From NCBI GenBank assembly GCA_937863465.1, contig CALMFG010000004.1, positions 1 to 32,625 on the forward strand: a DNA stretch of 32,625 nucleotides, written 5' to 3'. Under the pieces are notes generated by a model, which made no database searches, had not been told where the DNA came from, and worked only from the letters and a program-made list of their open reading frames with translations. Source of the stretch: an uncultured Clostridia bacterium (GTDB taxonomy: Bacteria; Bacillota; Clostridia; Christensenellales; CALMFG01). The position numbers and the translations under genes are program-made. Numbering within the stretch: position 1 is the first letter of the stretch; every line of letters starts with the position of its first letter. This document shows positions 271 through 31,199 of the stretch, one piece after another.

Positions 271-1209
271 ATGTCGGAAGGCAGGCACATACCTGTTTTG
301 CTCAGCGAGTGTATACAATATTTAAATCTTGAACCCGGAATGGCTATCGCGGACGGAACATTCGGCGGTGGGGGTCACTCGGCGGAGATCCTGAAAAGGA
401 TTCTGCCGGACGGAACGCTGATTGGGATTGACAAAGATCCCGAAGCCATTTTGCGGGGCGAGAAAATTTTTAGTTTATATAGTAAAAATGTACGGCTGGT
501 ACACGACGACTATATGAATATCGAACGTATATTAAGTAATCTTAATATAAAGGAAATCGACGGCGCGCTGCTGGATCTGGGCGTTTCGTCATTCCAGCTG
601 GATGACCAAGCTAGGGGGTTTAGCTACAAGGCCGACGTCATGCTGGATATGCGCATGGACAACACAAAAGGGATTACAGCCCGGGATGTTGTGAATGGGT
701 ATAGCGCAAATCAGCTGGCGGATATATTTTTTAGATACGGCGAAGAAAAATGGTCAAAACGCATAGCGGAGTTTATCGTTCTGAGGAGAAAGACAAAAGA
801 AATCTCCACATCCGGGGAACTCACAGAGGTCATAAAAGCAGCAGTGCCAGTTGCAGCGCGCAAGGAAGAGAAATACCCACAAATGCGCGTGTTTCAAGCG
901 ATTCGCATCGAAGTGAATGACGAGCTTAAAAACCTGCAAATGGCATTGGATGGCTTTTCGAAGGTGATACGGCCTGGGGGACGGCTGTGTGTCATCACCT
1001 TCCACTCGTTAGAGGACAGAATCGTCAAACAGTTCTTTAACAAGATGCAGGACCCTTGCGAGTGTCCTCCGGATGCTCCGATATGCATATGCGGAAAAGA
1101 ACCCACGGGCAAAGTACTGACCCGAAAACCGGTTCTGCCGCAAAACAGCGAAATAACGCTCAACAGCCGGGCCAAATCGGCCAAACTACGTGTGGTTGAG
1201 CTTTTATAA
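271..1209 (+). CDS. rsmH: 16S rRNA (cytosine(1402)-N(4))-methyltransferase RsmH (MraW)
   Basis: HIPVLLSECIQYL, DGTFGGGGHSAEIL, LDLGVSSFQLDDQARGFSY, ITFHSLEDRIVKQFF motifs; dcw position. Confidence 0.97.
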   Translation: MSEGRHIPVLLSECIQYLNLEPGMAIADGTFGGGGHSAEILKRILPDGTLIGIDKDPEAILRGEKIFSLYSKNVRLVHDDYMNIERILSNLNIKEIDGALLDLGVSSFQLDDQARGFSYKADVMLDMRMDNTKGITARDVVNGYSANQLADIFFRYGEEKWSKRIAEFIVLRRKTKEISTSGELTEVIKAAVPVAARKEEKYPQMRVFQAIRIEVNDELKNLQMALDGFSKVIRPGGRLCVITFHSLEDRIVKQFFNKMQDPCECPPDAPICICGKEPTGKVLTRKPVLPQNSEITLNSRAKSAKLRVVELL

Positions 1210-1248
1210 ACTTTAGACCAAGATTGTGTTTTAGGCGGTGAGACGAGA

Positions 1249-1818
1249 ATGGAAAACAGAAATTCAAACAGCAGCCATTCCCCATTCTATGATTTGTCAG
1301 ATAGCGAATCCAAAAAGCGGAGCAGCTATGAGGGCGAATTACAGATTTTTTCGGAGAGCCTGAAACGCAACACCGAAGCGGACACACACCGAGAGACCGC
1401 TGCAAATCAGAGAACTTCTTACGCGCCTGCGCCGAGAATCAAGAAAAGAAAATCGAAATACCGGAATCGGACCATGGAAAACCGCGGTGTCACGCTGACC
1501 GTTGTGATGATTTACGCGGTGGTGGGTTTTTTTGTCGGTTCCTTGATGATTGGGAGATATTCGAATATAATAAGAACGGATGAGAAGCTGGACGCCGTTG
1601 AGGCGCAGATTGACGAAATGAAATCACAGTCCGAAGAACTGCGCTTGCAGGTTTCCCTGCAGGACGACATCGCCATGGTTCAGGAACAGGCCAAGGATCG
1701 GCTGGGTATGGATTATCCAAATAATGACCAAATCGTCTATGTGAATCTGGACGGCGGCGATGCGGAAACGAATGATACGGACACCGAAGTGATGCAGAGC
1801 GATGCCAAGGTGCAGTAG
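1249..1818 (+). CDS. FtsL/septum-formation-initiator-like bitopic protein
   Basis: Basic N-terminal cytoplasmic region, one TM segment (GVTLTVVMIYAVVGFFVGSLMIG), then a coiled-coil-like region (DEKLDAVEAQIDEMKSQSEELRLQ); lies between rsmH and the class B PBP. Confidence 0.75.
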   Translation: MENRNSNSSHSPFYDLSDSESKKRSSYEGELQIFSESLKRNTEADTHRETAANQRTSYAPAPRIKKRKSKYRNRTMENRGVTLTVVMIYAVVGFFVGSLMIGRYSNIIRTDEKLDAVEAQIDEMKSQSEELRLQVSLQDDIAMVQEQAKDRLGMDYPNNDQIVYVNLDGGDAETNDTDTEVMQSDAKVQ

Positions 1819-1851
1819 GTGTTCTAAAATAGGTTAGGAGCGTGAAAACGG

Positions 1852-3942
1852 TTGGCTAGACCTTCGATATCGAGCAAAAATAGGCTGATTGTCGTACTTG
1901 GGATAATCAGCTTGCTTTTTATAGTGTTGATTGTCCGATTGGTGACCATCATGTTTGTGGACGCGGACGAATTGAAAGCCAAAGCCGAAGCGCAGTGGAC
2001 CCGCCAGTTTGACGAAACCGCCAAACGCGGGGATATTCTGGACCGCAACGGCAACATTCTGGCGCACTCTTCGGCGATTGAAACCGTGTATGTCGACGTG
2101 GCCGATGTGGAAAACGCCGAATATCTGGCACAGACCCTGTCCGATGTACTGGACTTGGACTATGACACGGTCTATGCAAGAGTTACCGACACGACCAAAT
2201 CGCAGGTCTGGATTAAGCGGCAGGTAGACAGCAGTGTCACCGATAAACTCAAAGAATTCGATCTGCCCGGAGTGGGATATTATACCGAAACCAAACGCTA
2301 TTACCCGAATGACGCATTCTTAACGCAGGTGCTGGGTATAACATCCACCGACGGCGAGGGGCTGGAGGGCATCGAAGGCCGCTATGATTTGTCGCTCTCG
2401 GGTGAGGACGGCCGGCTGGTCGGCGAAACCGACCGCTTGGGCAATACCATTCCCTACGGCGACAGCATGTACATCCCGGCCGAGGACGGTAACAACGTGG
2501 TGCTGACCATTGACGAAGTCATCCAGATGTTTCTGGAAAGTGCGCTGGAAGACGCCGTCATCGAACATCAGGCCCTTGGAGCGGAAGGGGTGGTCATGAA
2601 CCCCAAAACCGGCGAACTGCTGGCTGTGGCGAATTACCCAGATTTTGATCTCAACAATCCGCCGAGAAGCGACACCACCCTGTTGCAGGAGCGGATACGG
2701 AATAAGGTGTTTACCGACGCCTATGAACCCGGTTCGACATTTAAAATCATCACGGCCGCATCGGCTTTGGACAGCGGCGCAATGACCGTGGCGAATGATT
2801 TCGAATGCGTTGGTTATGAAATGGTGGACGGCGAACGCATCAACTGCTGGCGAAGCTATCTGCCGCACGGCAAAGAGACTTTCGCCGAAGCCCTGCAAAA
2901 CTCGTGCAATCCGGCTTTCATGGAAATGGGGCTGGCGATGGGTACAGATATTTTTTACGATTATATTTTCAAATTCGGTTTCGGGGAAAAGACCGGCGTG
3001 GATACTATCTACGAATCTGAAGGCATTGTGCAAAACATCAAATACGTTAAAAATTTCGACTTGGCGCATATCAGCTTTGGCCAAAGCATTGCGGTGACAC
3101 CGCTCCAGCTGGTCACTGCGGTTTCGGCGGTGGTCAACGGCGGCGAACTGATGCAGCCCATGCTGGTGAAGGAAGTCACCAACAGCGAGGGCTATGTGGT
3201 TCAGGAGAATGAGCCAACGGTGGTTCGGCACGTCATCAGCGAGGAAACCAGCGCGACCATGCGCGAGCTGCTGCAGAGCGTGGTGGATGATGGCGGCGCA
3301 ACGCAGGCCAAGATTGACGGATACGCGGTGGGCGGGAAAACCGGAACCGCGCAGAAATATGGGGAAGACGGCGAAATTCTGGAGAACAAGTATATCGCTT
3401 CGTTCATCGGCTTTGCGCCGGCCAACGACCCGCAGCTGGTGGTGCTGATACTCGTGGATGAACCGAGCGAAGGCCAAACCTTCGGTTCGGTGGTTGCCGC
3501 GCCGTATGCCAAAGAAGTGCTGGAAAGTTCGCTGAAGTATCTGGGCATTCCGGCTACCTATACCAGTGAGAACTCGTACGTAACCGTACCTAATGTCACC
3601 GGCCTCACCGCCAGTGCAGCGACGGAATTGATCGAAAAAGCGGGTCTCTCGGTCATCATGGACGGCACTGGCTCTGTCAAAACCCAGTCTCCGGCCGCGG
3701 GCGCCAGTCTGGCCAAAGGCGGGTCGGTTCAGCTCACCATGAGCGTGAAGGCCACCGAAAACACAGTCTATGTGGATGTGCCCAATGTGGTGGGCCTCAC
3801 CATGGAGGAAGCGCTAACTGCGCTGAAAGACCTGGGTTTGGAAGTAATGATTGCCCAGTCGGGTACCACTGTGACCACACAGAGCATACCGGCAGGTTCG
3901 TCTGTGGCAAAAGGAACCATTATTACCTTAAGCGGATATTAA
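1852..3942 (+). CDS. Class B penicillin-binding protein (FtsI/SpoVD-type) with two C-terminal PASTA domains; TTG start
   Basis: N-terminal TM, GDILDRNG, EPGSTFKI (SxxK), SCN, KTGTAQ, and two PASTA-like repeats (VTVPNVTGLTASAATELIEKAGL; VDVPNVVGLTMEEALTALKDLGL). Confidence 0.93.
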   Translation: MARPSISSKNRLIVVLGIISLLFIVLIVRLVTIMFVDADELKAKAEAQWTRQFDETAKRGDILDRNGNILAHSSAIETVYVDVADVENAEYLAQTLSDVLDLDYDTVYARVTDTTKSQVWIKRQVDSSVTDKLKEFDLPGVGYYTETKRYYPNDAFLTQVLGITSTDGEGLEGIEGRYDLSLSGEDGRLVGETDRLGNTIPYGDSMYIPAEDGNNVVLTIDEVIQMFLESALEDAVIEHQALGAEGVVMNPKTGELLAVANYPDFDLNNPPRSDTTLLQERIRNKVFTDAYEPGSTFKIITAASALDSGAMTVANDFECVGYEMVDGERINCWRSYLPHGKETFAEALQNSCNPAFMEMGLAMGTDIFYDYIFKFGFGEKTGVDTIYESEGIVQNIKYVKNFDLAHISFGQSIAVTPLQLVTAVSAVVNGGELMQPMLVKEVTNSEGYVVQENEPTVVRHVISEETSATMRELLQSVVDDGGATQAKIDGYAVGGKTGTAQKYGEDGEILENKYIASFIGFAPANDPQLVVLILVDEPSEGQTFGSVVAAPYAKEVLESSLKYLGIPATYTSENSYVTVPNVTGLTASAATELIEKAGLSVIMDGTGSVKTQSPAAGASLAKGGSVQLTMSVKATENTVYVDVPNVVGLTMEEALTALKDLGLEVMIAQSGTTVTTQSIPAGSSVAKGTIITLSGY

Positions 3943-3948
3943 AATTAC

Positions 3949-3977
3949 TTGCTAACACGGCGCTGAACCATTATGAT
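3949..3977 (+). promoter_or_regulatory. Candidate sigma70-type promoter upstream of murE
   Basis: TTGCTA (3949-3954) - 17 nt - TATGAT (3972-3977) in the intergenic gap. Confidence 0.4.
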
Positions 3978-4023
3978 ATATTGGAACCAAAATGGAATAA
4001 AAGAAGGTTAAAAAACACAATAT

Positions 4024-5466
4024 ATGAGATTGGATGAATTAACGGCCACCATATCCTGTCAATTGACGGGAGAGGCCGGAACCGAAATCGCCGGTTTGCA
4101 GTATGACTCACGAAAGGTGCAGGCAGGGGATTTGTTCTTCTGCATTTCCGGCTTTAAAAAAGACGGGCACGAATATGCCGAATCGGCCGTGAAACAGGGC
4201 GCCGCGGCGCTGATGGTGGCGCGCCAGCTAGATTTGGATATCCCCCAGATTATCGTGGAAGACGACCGTCTGGCGATGGCGGAAATCGCGTGCCGGTTCT
4301 ATGGTGATCCGGCCAAAAAGCTGATGATGATCGGTGTGACCGGAACCAACGGCAAGACGACCATCACCTATATGCTAAAAAGTGCTCTGGAAAAAGCGGG
4401 CAAAAAGGTGGGGCTCATCGGCACCATCCACAACATGATCGGCGACCAAGAGATTCATACCGAACACACCACACCCGAAGCGCCCGACCTGAACGCCCTG
4501 CTGGCGCGTATGGTCGGTGAAGGATGCAATGCGCTGGTCATCGAGGTTTCCAGCCATTCGCTGGCGTTGAAGCGCGTGGCGGGCATCACATTTGATGTAG
4601 GCATCTTCACCAACTTAACGCAGGATCACCTGGATTTCCACACCGATTTTGACGATTACGCGGCGGCCAAAGCCAAGCTATTTGCGGCATCCAGACAATG
4701 CGTTTTGAATGCTGATGATGCGGCGTATAAGACCATGCAGGCCGCGGCAAAGGGCTGCGTAAAGCTTTACGGCATCAATAACAAAGCCGACTATTCGGCG
4801 GACGATATCGTCGTCACGCCCGAAGGCATCAGCTTTAACTACTATAGAGAAACCCAGTTGGTCAAACGGCTGAATATGCACGTAACCGGCTATTTCAATG
4901 CCTACAACGCACTGGCGGCGCTGGGTACGTTGGACGTGCTGGGTCTGCCGGAATCGGCGGGCATTGAGACGCTGGAGACCATGCATGCGGTGGACGGACG
5001 CTGTCAGGTTCTGCCCACCGGCGGCAGAGGGTTTTCTGTGATACTGGATTATGCGCATACGCCGGACAGCCTGCAAAGCACCATCTCCTCGGTACGACGT
5101 TTTGCCAAGGGACGCATCATCACGGTGTTTGGATGCGGTGGCGACAGGGACGCCAAAAAGCGGCCGATTATGGGCGAAATCTCGGGTCGGCTTTCGGATT
5201 TTTCGGTCATCACCTCGGACAACCCGCGAACCGAAGACCCGTTCAAGATTTTGGAGCAGGTAGAGGCAGGAATGAAACAGACCAGCGGGGAATATACGGT
5301 CATCGAAAACCGGCGGGAAGCGATGAAGTACGCCATGCAGATGGCGAAGCAGGACGACATCGTGATTCTGGCGGGCAAGGGCCACGAGACATATCAGGAG
5401 ATTAACGGCGTTAAGTATGACTTTGACGAAAAAGTGGTCGTCAAAGAACTGCTCTCTGAGATTTAG
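4024..5466 (+). CDS. murE: UDP-N-acetylmuramoyl-tripeptide synthetase MurE
   Basis: GVTGTNGKTTITYML P-loop, EVSSHSL, DYAHTPDSL, DNPRTEDP (meso-DAP-type motif). Confidence 0.96.
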   Translation: MRLDELTATISCQLTGEAGTEIAGLQYDSRKVQAGDLFFCISGFKKDGHEYAESAVKQGAAALMVARQLDLDIPQIIVEDDRLAMAEIACRFYGDPAKKLMMIGVTGTNGKTTITYMLKSALEKAGKKVGLIGTIHNMIGDQEIHTEHTTPEAPDLNALLARMVGEGCNALVIEVSSHSLALKRVAGITFDVGIFTNLTQDHLDFHTDFDDYAAAKAKLFAASRQCVLNADDAAYKTMQAAAKGCVKLYGINNKADYSADDIVVTPEGISFNYYRETQLVKRLNMHVTGYFNAYNALAALGTLDVLGLPESAGIETLETMHAVDGRCQVLPTGGRGFSVILDYAHTPDSLQSTISSVRRFAKGRIITVFGCGGDRDAKKRPIMGEISGRLSDFSVITSDNPRTEDPFKILEQVEAGMKQTSGEYTVIENRREAMKYAMQMAKQDDIVILAGKGHETYQEINGVKYDFDEKVVVKELLSEI

Positions 5467-5517
5467 AAGTATTAATTTAAGAAAACTATTTTTAAGGATA
5501 AAGGTTAGGAACAAGGT

Positions 5518-6513
5518 ATGAAGACACAGGTTTTGGCGATATTGGTGGGTTTTGCGGTTTCGCTGGCCAGCGGTTATGCGATAATCCCGACGCTGAAGCG
5601 TCTGAAGGCCGGACAGCACGTGCGTGACGACGGCCCGCAGTCCCATCTGCAAAAAGAAGGCACACCAACGATGGGCGGCATCATGACGCTCTTCGGGGTT
5701 GTGGCGGCCACGCTGATATTCGCTAAAGGCAATCTGGAACTGGTATTGGTTGCATTGGGCACCTACCTGGCGTACACGCTGATCGGGTTTATTGACGATA
5801 TGATTATCGTCACCAAAAAGCGTTCGATGGGTCTGCGCGCATGGCAGAAATTTTCGGCGCAGATTCTGGTGGCCATTCTGGTCGCCGTCTATGCGTATTA
5901 CAATGAAGATATCGGAAGCACGATTATCGTGCCCTTCTTCAACGTCACATGGAATCTGGGCGGTTGGTACATTCCGTTTACCGTATTCATACTGGTGGCC
6001 ATGGTCAACAGCGTCAACCTGATGGACGGCGTGGATGGGCTGGCCGGTTCGGTGACCATGATCAACGCGGGCACATTCGTCTTCATTTTCTCCAGTGTCC
6101 TGGGCGTCACCTTTGTGTTCGGCTCAGGCAGTCTTTATGATATGCAGAACATGGCGGTATTTTCGGCGGCACTGGCCGGCGCTCTGCTGGGATTTCTGCA
6201 TTTCAACGCGTATCCGGCCAAAGTGTTTATGGGCGATACCGGCTCTTTGGGTTTGGGCGCGGCGCTCAGTGTCATGGGCATTTTCTCCAAGCTCAGCTTG
6301 ATTCTGCCGATTATCGGTTTGATGTACGTCCTGACCGCACTATCGGTCATCATTCAGGTAAGTCACTACAAGCGCACCAAAACGCGGGTTTTCCGTATGG
6401 CACCCCTGCACCACCACTTTGAACTTGGCGGCGTCAAGGAACCCAAAATCGTTGCGTCATACTGCATCATCACGACCATCCTGTGCCTGCTCACCTTGCT
6501 GGGATTGGCGTAA
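5518..6513 (+). CDS. mraY: Phospho-N-acetylmuramoyl-pentapeptide-transferase MraY
   Basis: Multi-TM; GTPTMGGIM, NLMDGVDGLAGS, FMGDTGSLGLG, APLHHHFELGG motifs. Confidence 0.97.
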   Translation: MKTQVLAILVGFAVSLASGYAIIPTLKRLKAGQHVRDDGPQSHLQKEGTPTMGGIMTLFGVVAATLIFAKGNLELVLVALGTYLAYTLIGFIDDMIIVTKKRSMGLRAWQKFSAQILVAILVAVYAYYNEDIGSTIIVPFFNVTWNLGGWYIPFTVFILVAMVNSVNLMDGVDGLAGSVTMINAGTFVFIFSSVLGVTFVFGSGSLYDMQNMAVFSAALAGALLGFLHFNAYPAKVFMGDTGSLGLGAALSVMGIFSKLSLILPIIGLMYVLTALSVIIQVSHYKRTKTRVFRMAPLHHHFELGGVKEPKIVASYCIITTILCLLTLLGLA

Positions 6514-6537
6514 TCATATCATAAGGATTAAACGGAC

Positions 6538-7899
6538 ATGTTAGAGGTCAAAGGAAAAACGGCTCTGGTTGTGGGCATGGCCAAAAGCGGCATCGCCTGC
6601 GCCAAACTCTTGAAAGACAGCGGCGCAACCGTATATATCAACGACAGTAAAAAAGCGGAGGATTTTTCGCCCGAAGAGCGCGGGATATTCGATTCGGTCT
6701 GCGATCGTCAATTTCTTGGCGAAAGCCCGATGGATGTTCTGGACGAAGTGGACATGCTGGTGCTGTCGCCCGGAGTTCCACCCAAACGCGTACCGTTTAT
6801 CGTGGAAGCCAAAAAACGCGGCATTGAAATTATCGCCGAGATTGAACTGGGTTTTCGCGCATGCAGTGCGCCGCTGGTCGCCATCACGGGTACCAACGGC
6901 AAAACCACCTGCACCGCGCTGACCGGCGCAATATTCGGCAACACCGAGAAAAAGACCTATGTCCTGGGCAACATCGGAACGCCGTTTTCGCTGTTGGCGC
7001 CCGAAACCAAACCGGAAGATATGGTGGTTCTGGAGGCGGCGGCGCTGCAACTGGAGACCACGGTGGATTTTAAACCCATCGCCAGCGCGGTTTTAAACAT
7101 CACCGAAGATCACTTAGACCGCTTTGAAACGATGGAATACTACACCGAATGCAAAGAGAAGATTTTTGCGAATCAGGACAAAAACGATTTTGTCGTTTTG
7201 AACTATGATAACGATATCGCACGCGCGATGGCGGGTAAGCACAAAGCCAGAAACACGTGGTTCAGCCGGACAACCGTGCTGGATTTCGGCGCATTTGTCA
7301 AGGACGGGATGATCATCTTCAAGGACGGCGAAAAAATTACCGAAATCTGCCGCGCGGACGAGGTATATATTCCGGGTCAGCACAATCTGGAAAATGCGTT
7401 AGCATGCACAGCGCTGGCCTTTGTCTGCGGGGTTTCGCCCGAAATCATCGCGTATACCTTAAAGACCTTTAAGGGTGTGGAACACCGCATCGAATTTGTA
7501 CGTGAATTTGAAGGCGTACGTTACATCAACGACTCCAAGGGCACCAATCCGGACGCCACCATCAATGCGATTAAGGCGATGGATCGGCCGACCATTCTCA
7601 TCCTGGGCGGATATGATAAAAAGAATGAATTTGACAGCATGTTTGCTGAATTCAACGAATATATTGAGGGCATTGTGGTTTTGGGACAGGTGAAAGACAA
7701 ACTGCTGGCCGCGGCCCAGAAAGCGGGCTTTAAAAAAGTCAGCACGGCCGATACCTTTGAGGAAGCGGTTCTTGTTTCCAGACAAAACGCAAAACCCGGT
7801 TACAATGTGCTGTTGTCTCCGGCCTGTGCATCCTATGATATGTTTCGAAATTTTGAAATTCGGGGAGCGAGATTTAAAGAAATCGTCAACGGATTTTAG
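6538..7899 (+). CDS. murD: UDP-N-acetylmuramoylalanine--D-glutamate ligase MurD
   Basis: AITGTNGKTTCTAL, NITEDHLDRF, NDSKGTNPDATINAI, LSPACASYDMFRNFEIRGARF. Confidence 0.95.
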   Translation: MLEVKGKTALVVGMAKSGIACAKLLKDSGATVYINDSKKAEDFSPEERGIFDSVCDRQFLGESPMDVLDEVDMLVLSPGVPPKRVPFIVEAKKRGIEIIAEIELGFRACSAPLVAITGTNGKTTCTALTGAIFGNTEKKTYVLGNIGTPFSLLAPETKPEDMVVLEAAALQLETTVDFKPIASAVLNITEDHLDRFETMEYYTECKEKIFANQDKNDFVVLNYDNDIARAMAGKHKARNTWFSRTTVLDFGAFVKDGMIIFKDGEKITEICRADEVYIPGQHNLENALACTALAFVCGVSPEIIAYTLKTFKGVEHRIEFVREFEGVRYINDSKGTNPDATINAIKAMDRPTILILGGYDKKNEFDSMFAEFNEYIEGIVVLGQVKDKLLAAAQKAGFKKVSTADTFEEAVLVSRQNAKPGYNVLLSPACASYDMFRNFEIRGARFKEIVNGF

Positions 7900-7910
7900 G
7901 GGGCAAAATC

Positions 7911-9095
7911 TTGAAAGAACGGTTAATAGACAGAAAATACGATTATACCATTCTGGTGGTGACCATCGTGCTGGTCATGCTCGGCGTTATCATGGTTTTT
8001 TCCGCGAGTTTTTATCAGGCCGAAAATTCTGAGCAATATAACAACGACGGCCTGTATTTCTTTAAGCGACAGATTGTGGGCGCCATCCTGGGCCTGGGTG
8101 CTATGGCAGTCGGTATGCTGATGGACTATCATTTTTTAGCTAAATTTAAATACTGGGGACTCCTGATTTCGGCGGTTTTACTGCTTTTGGTCTATGTCCC
8201 TGGCGTAGGCGTGGAAATCAACGGCTCCCACCGCTGGATCAACCTGCGCTTCACCACGATCCAGCCTTCCGAGGTGGCCAAATTCTTTTTGATCATATCC
8301 ATCGCCAAAATTCTGGAGGATAACCAGCCTAAAGTCAGATCGTTTATTTACGGCATCTGGCCGGTCTTGGTGGTGGTGGGCGTCATTGCGGCGCTGATCG
8401 TCCCGCAGCCGAATTATTCGGCCATCATGATTATTGTCATCATCGCGTTTGCCATGATGCTGTGCGGCGGATCGAATTTGTTCTATTTGCTTGGATTCTT
8501 GATTCTGGCAGCCGGCGCCGCGGCCTATGTGCTTTCCACGCAGGAATACATCCGCGTGCGGCTGTTTGCCTATTTAACGCCCGAACTGGACCCGCTTGGC
8601 AAGGGCTATCAGATTCTTCAGTCGCTCTACGCCATCGGCTCAGGCGGATTTTTGGGGCGAGGACTCGGCAACTCCATGCAGAAATTCCTGTACCTGCCTT
8701 ACGGCGAATCGGACTTCATTTTCTCCATCCTCTGTGAGGAGTTGGGGTTTGCCGGCGCAATGTTGCTGATTATCCTGTTTGTCGTGCTAATCTATCGCGG
8801 CATCCGCACGGCCTTACGGTCTTCGGACGTTTTCGGTATGCTGGTTTCCACCGGCATCATGGTGATGATTGGCCTGCAGGTTGTTTTAAACATTGCGGTG
8901 GCCACGCGAACCATGCCGCCGACGGGCGTCTCACTGCCGTTTATCTCGCAAGGCTTAACCGCTCTTGTTATGTTCATGGGTGAGATCGGCATCGTGCTGA
9001 ACATCTCCTATCAGGGAAATCGGTTCCAGGATCAGCTGAAAGCGCATCAGACGCCGCAGACTATTCAGAGCAGCCGAAGAGCGAAGGGGTATTAA
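7911..9095 (+). CDS. ftsW: SEDS glycosyltransferase FtsW/SpoVE; TTG start
   Basis: About 10 TM helices; NGSHRWINL, QPSEVAKF, GRGLGNSMQKFLYLPYGESDFIFSILCEELGF, PFISQGLTAL. Confidence 0.93.
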   Translation: MKERLIDRKYDYTILVVTIVLVMLGVIMVFSASFYQAENSEQYNNDGLYFFKRQIVGAILGLGAMAVGMLMDYHFLAKFKYWGLLISAVLLLLVYVPGVGVEINGSHRWINLRFTTIQPSEVAKFFLIISIAKILEDNQPKVRSFIYGIWPVLVVVGVIAALIVPQPNYSAIMIIVIIAFAMMLCGGSNLFYLLGFLILAAGAAAYVLSTQEYIRVRLFAYLTPELDPLGKGYQILQSLYAIGSGGFLGRGLGNSMQKFLYLPYGESDFIFSILCEELGFAGAMLLIILFVVLIYRGIRTALRSSDVFGMLVSTGIMVMIGLQVVLNIAVATRTMPPTGVSLPFISQGLTALVMFMGEIGIVLNISYQGNRFQDQLKAHQTPQTIQSSRRAKGY

Positions 9096-9097
9096 AC

Positions 9098-9820
9098 ATG
9101 GAATATCAGGAAAAACGATCGGGCATTGGAATGCTCATCTTCATATTTATTCTGATGATGGCGCTTCTCTTCATCGGCTGGCGGTATTTTAGGGTATCAA
9201 AAATTGAAGTGGAAGGCAATATTAACATCTCTTCTGATTATATCACCAAGCTGAGCGGCATCAAAAAGGATCAGAACCTGTTTGATATCGATACCGACAA
9301 GGTGAGATCCTATATCAACTCGGACCCCTATCTGGAATACTACGGGATCAAACGGCTTTTCCCGTCAACTGTCCGCGTGGAGGTCTACGAACGGATTCCG
9401 GCGGCCCTGCTGATTGGGAAGGAAAGCAACTATGTTCTGGACAATCAGGGGAATGTATTGGAGTCCATCAATAAAGTCAATTACTCGGTTTTGATAATTA
9501 CCGGTCTCACCGGTTTTACCGCCGTGCCGGGCGAAAGCCTGACCACCGCGACGCCATACCAATATGATGCGCTGACGGCCATCTTAAAAGATGTGAAATT
9601 CAACGATTTATCCAGCGTGGTGACCGAAATGAATATGTCGGACATCAATAACATCATCATGCGCACCGATGTGGGGTTCACGATTGAGTTTGGACAGGCT
9701 GAAAAGGTCTCAGACAAAATCATTTGGATTAATAAAGCCATCGAAGAACTGACTGCAAAAAATATTTCAGCCGGCACAATTAACGTGGTTTCGGGTAAAT
9801 CGGCGAGCTATTCCGAATAA
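9098..9820 (+). CDS. ftsQ: Cell division protein FtsQ/DivIB
   Basis: N-terminal TM followed by a POTRA-like region (YFRVSKIEVEGNINISSDYI...) and RLFPSTVRVEVYERIPAALL. Confidence 0.85.
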   Translation: MEYQEKRSGIGMLIFIFILMMALLFIGWRYFRVSKIEVEGNINISSDYITKLSGIKKDQNLFDIDTDKVRSYINSDPYLEYYGIKRLFPSTVRVEVYERIPAALLIGKESNYVLDNQGNVLESINKVNYSVLIITGLTGFTAVPGESLTTATPYQYDALTAILKDVKFNDLSSVVTEMNMSDINNIIMRTDVGFTIEFGQAEKVSDKIIWINKAIEELTAKNISAGTINVVSGKSASYSE

Positions 9821-9963
9821 TTTTTCCGATTTATACGGCTATATGAGGCACTTTTTGACAAATTATTATTTATTATTTTGTTTACATCTGATATTATGTA
9901 TATGTAGTGGTATATGTGTTCCCGTATACACTATATTGGATATTAAGAAGGATACAAACCGGC

Positions 9964-11091
9964 ATGGGCAAATCTGTTATGACAGTGGAATTTGGAACAT
10001 CAAAAGTCATTTGCGCCATAGGCCGAAAGCGGTCTAGGGGACGGTTTGAGATTGTCTCGTTGGCCCAGATAAACTATGCGGGGTTAAAAAAAGGACGCTG
10101 GCAGGAGCTGGAGCTGGTGCCCGAAGTCCTGAAAAAGACGATTAAAGAAGCCAAAACCAAGGCCAAACAGAACCCGACTTCGGCGTATGTGGGCATCCCG
10201 CCCTGCTTTTGCCGGGTGCATTGCGCGTCATCGGCCATGGACATCATCGGGAACAACCGTGTCATCACGGCTGAAATCGTGGACAGGATGATGAAAAACG
10301 CCCAGCACTTTGATGTGCCGGATGAATATGAAATGGTGCACGCGAGTTCGGTGTATTTTAAATTGGACGGACAGAACCTGTTCATCGATCCTGTGGGCGT
10401 GGAAGCCTCGCACATTGAAGGGCAGTTTGCGTTTATCTTCGCCAAAAAACGTTTTTTATACGAAGCGAAGACACTGCTGGATGTGCTGAGTATTTCCATC
10501 ACGGCGTTTAAACCCGAGATGCTGTGTCAGGCGCTCTTCCTGATTCCCGTTGAGGAACGCGACGCGTCCTCGGTTCTGCTGGATATCGGGTTCTACGATA
10601 CGTCGGTTAGCATCATATACGGCGATACGGTCATCTACTCGCGCGTGATTCCGGCGGGCGGTGCCCAGATTACCAGCGACCTTTCACAGGTGCTGGATAT
10701 CGATATGGAATCCGCCGAGCGCATCAAACGCCGGTTTTCGTTTGAAACCACCATCTATCCGCAGCATGTGAAGGAAACGGTGCGGCAGGATGGAAACATC
10801 ATTGAAGTGGACAAGCAGATGATTGCCGAGATTATTCTTTCCCGGGTGGATCATCTGACGCATATGATTAAAACCGCATTGAATGAATCGCATGTGGAAC
10901 TGCCCGAAACCACCAAGGTGTATCTCACCGGGGCGGGGATTTCCATGATGAAGGGCAGCGCGGCCTATCTGGAGGACAATCTGGGACTCACCACCATATT
11001 GCCGCAGATCGACGCCACCAATTATTCATCACCGAATTTCCACAACGCGATTGGGCTTTTAGACCATGTGCTGTCCAATGAAGAAGGATAA
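9964..11091 (+). CDS. ftsA: FtsA-like actin-fold cell division protein (divergent, lacks C-terminal tail); ORF track extends to a GTG at 9907
   Basis: MTVEFGTSKVICAIGRK, LLDIGFYDTSVSIIYGDTVIYSRVIPAGGAQITSDLSQVL, VYLTGAGISMMKG; immediately upstream of ftsZ. ATG 9964 preferred because AAGAAGGA lies ~11 nt upstream. Confidence 0.82.
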   Translation: MGKSVMTVEFGTSKVICAIGRKRSRGRFEIVSLAQINYAGLKKGRWQELELVPEVLKKTIKEAKTKAKQNPTSAYVGIPPCFCRVHCASSAMDIIGNNRVITAEIVDRMMKNAQHFDVPDEYEMVHASSVYFKLDGQNLFIDPVGVEASHIEGQFAFIFAKKRFLYEAKTLLDVLSISITAFKPEMLCQALFLIPVEERDASSVLLDIGFYDTSVSIIYGDTVIYSRVIPAGGAQITSDLSQVLDIDMESAERIKRRFSFETTIYPQHVKETVRQDGNIIEVDKQMIAEIILSRVDHLTHMIKTALNESHVELPETTKVYLTGAGISMMKGSAAYLEDNLGLTTILPQIDATNYSSPNFHNAIGLLDHVLSNEEG

Positions 11092-11156
11092 GATAGATTA
11101 ACATATTCGGCCGACCGAAAAGAATAAACGGATCGGCTATAACAGGAGAAACAGAC

Positions 11157-12335
11157 ATGTCTCTGGATTTTGAAGTGGGAAGCAGCATGTACGCAAAAAT
11201 AAAGGTGATAGGAATCGGCGGCGCCGGAAACAACGCGGTCAACCGAATGATTCAAATCGGCCTTCAGGGCGCCGAATTTTTAGCCATCAACACGGATATG
11301 CAGGCGCTGAATATCTCAAAAGCATCCGTTAAAATCCAGATTGGTGAAAAGATTACGCGCGGACTGGGATCGGGCGGAGACCCCGAAACCGGCAAACAGG
11401 CGGCAATCGAATCGCGTCAGGCGATTAAGGACGCGGTGGCGGGCGCCGATCTGGTGTTTATCGCGGCAGGTCTCGGCGGCGGCACGGGAACGGGCGCGGC
11501 CCCTGTGGTGGCCGAAATTGTATCCGAACTCGGCATTCTTTCGGTGGCGGTTGTCACGCTTCCGTTTATCTTTGAGGGCGGACACAGAATGGAAGCGGCG
11601 CTGCAGGGACATCGGACATTGATGTCCAAAGTCAACACCATTGTCACCATCCCCAACGAAAAACTTGCGCTCATTCTGCCAAAGGGTACGCCCCTGGTGG
11701 AGTGCTTTAAGAAAGCGGACGACGTTCTGCGTCAGGGCGTTCAGGGCATTACCGACCTCATCAGCCGTCCTGGCATGATCAACCTCGACTTTGCCGATGT
11801 ACGCAAGGTGCTGTCCATGCGGGGCGTGGCGCATATGGGTATCGGAGACGGCAGCGGCGAATATAAGGTCATGGATGCGATTAAAGCGGCGATTGCTTCG
11901 CCCTTGCTGGAAACCACCATCAAAGGGGCAACTGGCGTTCTTTTGAACGTCATCGGCGACGAAACCATCAGCCTGACCGAAATTCAGGATGCGGCTTCCT
12001 TAATCCAGCGGGCGGTTCACCCGAAAGCGCATATCTACTTTGGCGCGGATACATTGCCCACCATGAAAGACGAGGTGCATATCACGGTCATTGCCACCGG
12101 CTTTGCCGAGATGCCGGATGAATTCGAGCATAAACCCGAGGACATGGAAGATGAACTGGACTTTGAGCCCGAACTGATGACCGACATCTTCAACACGGAC
12201 AGCGGCACGGGTACCATCAAGCAGGTTCCCAAGAAAAAGGTGCACATGGATTTTGGAGACTTTGACGACAGCAGTGAGCTGGATGTGCCGATATTTATCA
12301 AGAATAAAAACAAACTCAGCGAGGATGACGAATAA
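11157..12335 (+). CDS. ftsZ: Cell division GTPase FtsZ
   Basis: [39 protein letters not shown]-terminal peptide [11 protein letters not shown]. Confidence 0.98.
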
Positions 12336-29899: not shown

Positions 29900-29925
29900 A
29901 AAAGGCCGTTTATAGCGGCCTTTTT
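29900..29925 (+). terminator. Rho-independent terminator downstream of recA
   Basis: AAAAGGCCG-TTTATAG-CGGCCTTTTT. Confidence 0.85.
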
Positions 29926-29993
29926 GGCACATTGTCCAAAAACAAGCGAAAAAAGTCAGATGTGAATAAATTTTTACGTTTAAACCCTACCCC

Positions 29994-30022
29994 TTGAAAG
30001 CGTTTTGGATATATAATATAAT
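29994..30022 (+). promoter_or_regulatory. Sigma70-type promoter of the OLE RNA-oapA locus
   Basis: TTGAAA (29994-29999) - 17 nt - TATAAT (30017-30022); predicted start at ~30028-30030 coincides with the 5' strand of the terminal helix. Confidence 0.75.
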
Positions 30023-30027
30023 CCATT

Positions 30028-30607
30028 ACGGTGGTGCAGTATTCTAGTCGGTACGCACATCTTCGAAGACGGGGCTAAAAATCCGTTAAAGAGCACATCG
30101 ATGAAGTCCCTTGTGTTGGCGGCTGACGCCCAGTCGGGTGCTGATGCTGGGGGTTAAGGTTGAAGGGCGATCTGCAATGGCATGCAGGCGTTGACCCAGC
30201 TTCCGTGGAGGGCCCAAGAGGGTGGTCTTTTTTGATTACTGCTTGGGTTAAACCTGTAATGTGGCGAAATGCTATGTACAGAGTAGCTTGCCTTGAGTGG
30301 AGTAGGTGGATTTCGGATTACGCGCGTTCGTAAGCATAGGCCATGCTGGAACGGGTGATTGCCGTTTGAAACCTATTGCTGCAAAAGAGGATAGAAGATG
30401 TGGTAGTGCTGTCGAGGAAAGCTCCTAGACTGTATACCAGGCATGTTGGGGATTATAGTGTGGTCTTAATGGTAATCCGGTCACGTGTGCGGTGACGCCG
30501 CGTAATGTGTGTTAAAGGGAAACCGCTCTTTTCGGCGACGAGGAGCCATACATTGAGAAATTCTACCGGACCTATGCTGCAAGGTTTACCCAGCGTGCTA
30601 CCACCGT
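30028..30607 (+). ncRNA. OLE (Ornate, Large, Extremophilic) RNA, ~580 nt
   Basis: Long non-coding gap after the recA terminator with its own promoter; closing helix TACGGTGGT (30027-30035)/ACCACCGTA (30600-30608); multiple internal hairpins; directly upstream of an OapA-like membrane protein and dxs. Sequence style and synteny match what I know of OLE. Confidence 0.88.
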
Positions 30608-30632
30608 ATTATTAAAAATTAGGAAGACGGTT

Positions 30633-31199
30633 GTGGCAGATACAGGAAAAAAGTCAAAACAGGTTAAGAATTGGGCTTTTAAAATTTTCTTTATATCCTT
30701 ACTGCTGGCGTCCGTCGTTAGCGTGGTTGCGGAGTACTTTACCCAAGGGTTATCCATCTTCGCAGCTTTTTTTATTTTGATTCTCATCGTCGGCATCGGC
30801 GTGGTGGCGGATATTGTGGGCGTGGCATTTGCCACCTGCGACCAGCAGCCGTTTATCGCCATGTCGGCCAAGCGTATCCCCAATGCCCGGGCGGCGCTGG
30901 ATATGCTGAAAAAAGCGGATATCGTCTCCAACTTCTGCAATGACGTCATCGGCGACATCTGCGGCATCGTTTCGGGTGCGGCGGGCGCGGCCATCGCCCT
31001 CAAAGTGGTGAGCGAGGTGGGTACGGACGGACGTGCCTGGATGGACAGCGCCATCGCCATTGGTTTATCGTCGCTGATTGCGGCGACCACTGTGGCGGGC
31101 AAAGCGATGGGTAAGTCCTTCGCCATGAAAAAGAACCGCGAGATTGTATCCATGATCGGGTCGGTTGTCGTCTTTTTTAAGGGCAAAGATAAGGTTTAA
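30633..31199 (+). CDS. oapA: OLE-associated membrane protein OapA; GTG start
   Basis: 188 aa, about 4 hydrophobic segments (FKIFFISLLLASVVSVVAEYF, FAAFFILILIVGIGVVADIVGVAFA, DICGIVSGAAGAAIALKVV, AIAIGLSSLIAATTVAGKAMG); position immediately 3' of OLE RNA; AGGA upstream of GTG. Confidence 0.83.
   Translation: MADTGKKSKQVKNWAFKIFFISLLLASVVSVVAEYFTQGLSIFAAFFILILIVGIGVVADIVGVAFATCDQQPFIAMSAKRIPNARAALDMLKKADIVSNFCNDVIGDICGIVSGAAGAAIALKVVSEVGTDGRAWMDSAIAIGLSSLIAATTVAGKAMGKSFAMKKNREIVSMIGSVVVFFKGKDKV

Follow-up and report, generated by a model that had tools for sequence, protein, structure and literature searches.

The Ornate Large Extremophilic (OLE) RNA, family RF01071, is known from Halalkalibacterium halodurans, Clostridium acetobutylicum and Clostridium botulinum, and forms a class of large bacterial RNAs. 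Its gene and that of the membrane protein OapA have been described as almost completely mutually inclusive, such that the two might never appear independently (PMC11332333). Work on OLE RNAs of H. halodurans and Clostridium suggests that the RNA of a locus such as the one analysed here would be transcribed with oapA and have its two ends paired; it would dimerise via conserved loops, be anchored to the membrane by OapA, and be bound by OapB in its 3' domain and by OapC at a kink-turn in its 5' domain. The resulting particle may tune growth under stress and the handling of divalent metals (Mg2+/Mn2+); in many other species this role would fall to the Mg2+ exporter MpfA.

Results

A cmscan search of the whole window, a 32,625-nucleotide stretch of DNA from an uncultured Clostridia bacterium, returns OLE as the sole Rfam match, at 30015–30620 on the + strand (472.1 bits, E 1e-135, where the curated cut-off of the family is 50 bits). 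All positions of the model, 1–616 of 616, are spanned in 606 nt, and we place the RNA itself at 30027–30620. The full-length match, together with compensatory changes among relatives and an oapA gene directly downstream, bears out the original prediction of an OLE-class RNA, as does the longest + strand stop-to-stop stretch of 62 codons its claim that the region holds no credible + strand ORF. With P7–P9 and the 3' domain in place, the RNA is the full-length form of ~600 nt and a reduced variant is excluded; the published bit-score classes are only indicative here, since they were built with a different model. Within the same order, OLE was found in half of a sample of 200 genomes (100), most full-length matches scoring ~350–530 bits, and the window RNA ranks 23rd best among the 100. 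Its score is therefore typical, and the proposal that it is a divergent or odd homologue is rejected. The window genome (G000) carries no other OLE. The window RNA adds a new, complete and ordinary member to an established RNA family, with which it shares its length, the whole of the secondary structure, the conserved loops and palindromes, the downstream oapA, and the presence of OapB, OapC and bS21 genes.

The structure was examined in an alignment of the window OLE with 62 other OLE RNAs, in which the Rfam structure and the proposed terminal helix were scored; one stray 10-nt row (L126), included unintentionally, enters as gaps at almost every pair. Across the 63 sequences 84.4% of structure cells pair, as against only 41–46% in a slid control with the 3' partners moved by 1–3 columns, and for 130 of the 160 pairs at least one sequence has both partners changed. 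The window RNA has non-standard pairings at 12 of the model's 151 base pairs. The 9-bp helix said to join the two ends is supported, with double changes in seven of its nine pairs and 84% of cells paired; it is formed by TACGGTGGT and ACCACCGTA at 30027–30035/30600–30608, one base outside the ends first given, and the Rfam structure line leaves these ends unpaired. The hairpins proposed within the RNA fare unequally. CCCAAG/CTTGGG (30213–30247) accords with the Rfam model, as a fast-evolving stem with ~50% of cells paired, and so does the hairpin within 30411–30430, whose GAG/CTC pairs are 100% paired and whose outer GTC/GAC pairs form in 90% of cells. TTACG/CGTAA (30318–30333) is a chance hairpin, pairing in 37% of cells, and its bases belong to a longer model stem. 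GTCAC/GTGAC (30480–30496) clashes with two covarying stems and is 69% paired, versus 93–100% for the model stems.

Several OLE matches in other genomes depart from the usual length or arrangement. One, L043:1147-1977, is an 831-nt OLE with extra sequence at several places and no N runs, which represents natural size variation. An apparent 200-nt insertion in the G186 OLE is a run of N, and the split or duplicated OLEs in G194, G033, G018 and G170 are assembly breaks, since the matches sit at contig ends.

The loops to which dimer contacts have been ascribed (A-rich P4, GCC/GGC kissing and P9 GGCC) are all present in the window RNA and are near-invariant or common in relatives; stem numbers were assigned by our own reading of PMC12265935. 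A hairpin at 30068–30087 (helix 2, 97% paired) presents the near-invariant A-rich loop GCUAAAAA at 30074–30081 and may correspond to the published P4 dimer contact. The palindrome CAUCGAUG at 30096–30103, near-invariant in the 63 OLEs, probably corresponds in position to the P4a palindrome, to which an OapA site has been ascribed (PMC12265935). The loop GCCCA at 30128–30132, near-invariant on a stem that is 96% paired, is complementary to the mostly near-invariant loop AUGGCA at 30177–30182, whose stem is 100% paired, and we read the two as the putative counterpart of the published inter-subunit kissing contact. The palindromic GGCC at 30339–30342, the helix 15 loop of the long stem P9, occurs in most aligned OLEs and would be a self-kissing dimer contact. 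Finally, the 3' domain (30440–30599) consists of nested stems closing on 30440–30450/30589–30599, with loops GGUGAC and GGCGAC; its helices 17–22 are 93–100% paired with many double changes, and it contains the region of the OapB site (P12.2/P13), placed after PMC9723947 and PMC11332333.

A predicted promoter, TTGAAA-17-TATAAT (29994–30022, + strand), matches the consensus at 11 of 12 positions and is the best site in the region. It ends just before the GGUGGU region, with a predicted RNA start near 30029. Within 60 nt ahead of the RNA, 23 of the 30 same-order loci (L001–L030) show a similar promoter, versus 1.9 in shuffled upstream sequence, and 35 of 69 wider loci have a comparable one, versus 6.1 in shuffles. 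Because this promoter-like site is conserved ahead of the RNA, OLE in this order probably has a dedicated promoter of the sigma-70 type, whereas the H. halodurans OLE gene lies in a polycistronic transcript (PMC12265935). Further upstream, near 29901–29926, a hairpin that by eye looks like a terminator of recA, AAAGGCCG...CGGCCTTT, is present; it is absent from the list of the automated scan. Downstream, oapA (30633–31199, + strand) starts at a GTG behind an AGGA ribosome site at 30621–30624, which makes co-transcription of ole and oapA likely.

The position of the RNA beside recA, which the original prediction had singled out, is real, yet it is a lineage trait common to a sister family. With recA upstream and dxs downstream the window RNA differs from the previously known OLE RNAs; recA also precedes OLE in G186 and, in family f21, at the four loci L007, L020, L022 and L024, and the f21 OapA proteins form the sister group of the window OapA in the tree (support 100/98). 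The passages found in a paper that names OLE RNA, recA and gene cluster together describe no recA–OLE linkage. A dxs gene is nearby in most other loci read. In L027, ispA, identified by similarity in the sister loci, lies before OLE, and oapA is followed by what we take, from our own reading of the ORF, to be tlyA. Elsewhere in the window, 271–12335 holds an ordinary division and cell-wall cluster, presumably running from mraW/rsmH to ftsZ and unrelated to OLE.

The protein encoded by oapA is a 188-residue membrane protein. We assign it to OapA because each of the 30 same-order OLE loci read carries a homologue and because, among the best 80 relatives in named genomes, found with a profile built from the same-order homologues, 78 share their locus with OLE; the remaining two sit close to a contig edge. 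These 80 range from Oscillospiraceae MAGs to Clostridium, Fictibacillus, Halalkalibacter and Paenibacillus. The window protein is ~35–45% identical (range from ~34%) to most OapA proteins compared and 52% identical to the nearest, and sequence searches of Pfam (at 0.001), NCBIfam and the PDB gave no relative. It is like known OapA in size, in its four-helix membrane fold, in the DxxxD motif (D104/D108, invariant in OapA) and in a conserved segment around PFxAMAAKKVxGAK. The AlphaFold2 model (pLDDT 90) has long helices at 4–37, 42–68, 95–129 and 135–166, and its top fold matches are CNNM Mg2+ transporters (MtCorB 7m1t, TM 0.56, with E only 0.04). A CNNM-like fold has been published for H. halodurans OapA (PMC11332333). 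The predicted fold thus best matches the membrane domain of the MpfA/CorB/CNNM exporters (PF01595), but the window protein is without their CBS or HlyC/CorC domains and falls below the Pfam CNNM threshold by sequence.

The remaining partners are encoded elsewhere in the genome. On contig C171 map and infA flank the OapB gene, the product of which has "OLE-associated protein B" (7k9b, E 1e-11) as its best PDB match; matches from a KOW-domain search were tried as OapB and discarded, and it was the gene order map–OapB–infA that located the gene. OapC/YbxF is encoded between rpoC and rpsL, with YbxF (3v7e and 4lck) as the best PDB matches, and a bS21 gene is present. OapB and OapC are optional in the OLE family. 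A search of the window genome for CNNM/MpfA gave no match at E 10, where 12 of 14 control genomes have one; as the assembly is 97% complete and divided among 209 contigs, the absence is not certain. A lack of MpfA fits the published anticorrelation of OLE and MpfA. That exclusion is not strict, as G071 bears OLE and also has MpfA.

In the same 200 genomes OapA occurs in 124 and OLE in 100, with both in 98, OapA only in 26 and OLE only in 2. A laxer OLE search of the 26 OapA-only genomes found none at E up to 10. OapA is therefore present without OLE in 26 of 124 OapA-bearing genomes, a new result that contrasts with the view in PMC11332333. The absence of OLE tracks families, comprising 10 of 10 OapA-bearing genomes in f5, 2 of 2 in f7 and 8 of 10 in f28; the remaining single absences, in f13, f16, f18 and f32, may stem from gaps in the assembly or from weak matches. 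OLE-free oapA loci include L130, L144, L146–L148, L153 and L154 (f5), L131 and L145 (f7), and L139–L143 (f28). In f5 and f7 the gene order is ispA–oapA–dxs, with no room for OLE. Within one f24 genus, L027 has ispA–OLE–oapA and L155 and L156 have ispA–oapA with a short gap, which looks like a clean natural deletion of OLE within a genus. Judged from these loci, the losses look repeated. Full-length CNNM/MpfA proteins were found in all f5 and f7 genomes, and none besides OapA itself in the f28 genomes, so that OLE loss goes with MpfA in f5 and f7 and OapA alone remains in f28. The two f28 genomes that do carry OLE, G051 and G137, each encode OapA twice, once next to OLE and once at another site.

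In a few genomes OLE and oapA are split between contigs. Both lie well inside their contigs in G012 (L132, L133), where the two are therefore truly unlinked; the same arrangement is seen in G062 and G116 (f13) and in G029, position relative to the contig ends having been checked for G012 only.

We compared 111 OLE-linked OapA proteins with 14 of the OLE-free type, the latter from f5 and the second copies of f28. In the OLE-free type the conserved positions of residues 73–88 (window OapA numbering; 30849–30896) are kept in 29% of cases, as against 82% for residues 1–72, 81% for 89–120 and 86% for 121–187. P73 and M77 are kept in none of the 14, and D60, D104, G107, D108, G115, K157 and K161 in all 14. 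By correspondence of the DxxxD motif, D104 and D108 are the residues changed in the PM1 mutant of H. halodurans OapA (D100A, D104A; PMC9723947). The two OLE-linked copies of f28 keep segment 73–88, unlike the second copies of those genomes; OapA of f7 and f24 is intermediate there (68%). As the f5 proteins and the f28 second copies fall in separate clades of the tree, the segment was lost on at least two occasions. In the AlphaFold2 model residues 72–79 and 83–93 form two short helices, a helical hairpin between TM2 and TM3. These observations suggest segment 73–88 as a candidate contact site for OLE RNA, on the strength of about two independent events only; relaxed selection for another reason could also have led to its loss.

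Discussion

The region is best explained as an OLE RNA gene that is full-length and functional, a reading to which we assign a probability of about 90%, a figure that covers the whole reading including the particle role that the RNA would play. That the stretch is merely structured by chance, or cryptically coding, might be suggested by the fact that some of the hairpins first proposed are indeed chance, and this is already refuted by the cmscan match to the RNA family (E 1e-135) and the strong covariation, with at most 62 codons from stop to stop on the + strand. Decay into a non-working OLE gene is very improbable: the 12 non-standard pairs out of 151 would be in keeping with it, and against it stand a score of 472 bits that is 23rd of 100, the near-invariant loops, the promoter, and partner genes that are all intact.

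Somewhat less remote, though still improbable, is that the region serves as a long structured leader that regulates oapA mRNA in cis and yields no stable trans-acting RNA. On the same strand oapA follows OLE closely, no clear terminator separates the two, and they are neighbours in most OLE loci read, all of which a leader would explain. It would not explain the unlinked OLE and oapA of G012 (L132, L133), which sit on separate contigs away from contig ends, nor the 26 genomes in which oapA persists without any OLE; moreover, in H. halodurans OLE functions as an abundant RNA (PMC12265935). A functional OLE RNA gene is the reading we retain.

The window instance alone adds little. The wider comparison points to a scenario to which we give roughly even odds, namely that OLE was lost several times from genomes in which OapA stayed, that OapA there retained its transporter core with both Asp of DxxxD but in two separate lineages lost segment 73–88, that this segment is the OLE contact, and that OapA alone is a working metal transporter which OLE regulates. 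Natural genomes in which OapA was kept and OLE lost indicate that the partner protein can outlive the RNA. Together with a specific segment of OapA, these OLE-free genomes would allow one to ask directly what OapA does without the RNA and where the RNA binds.
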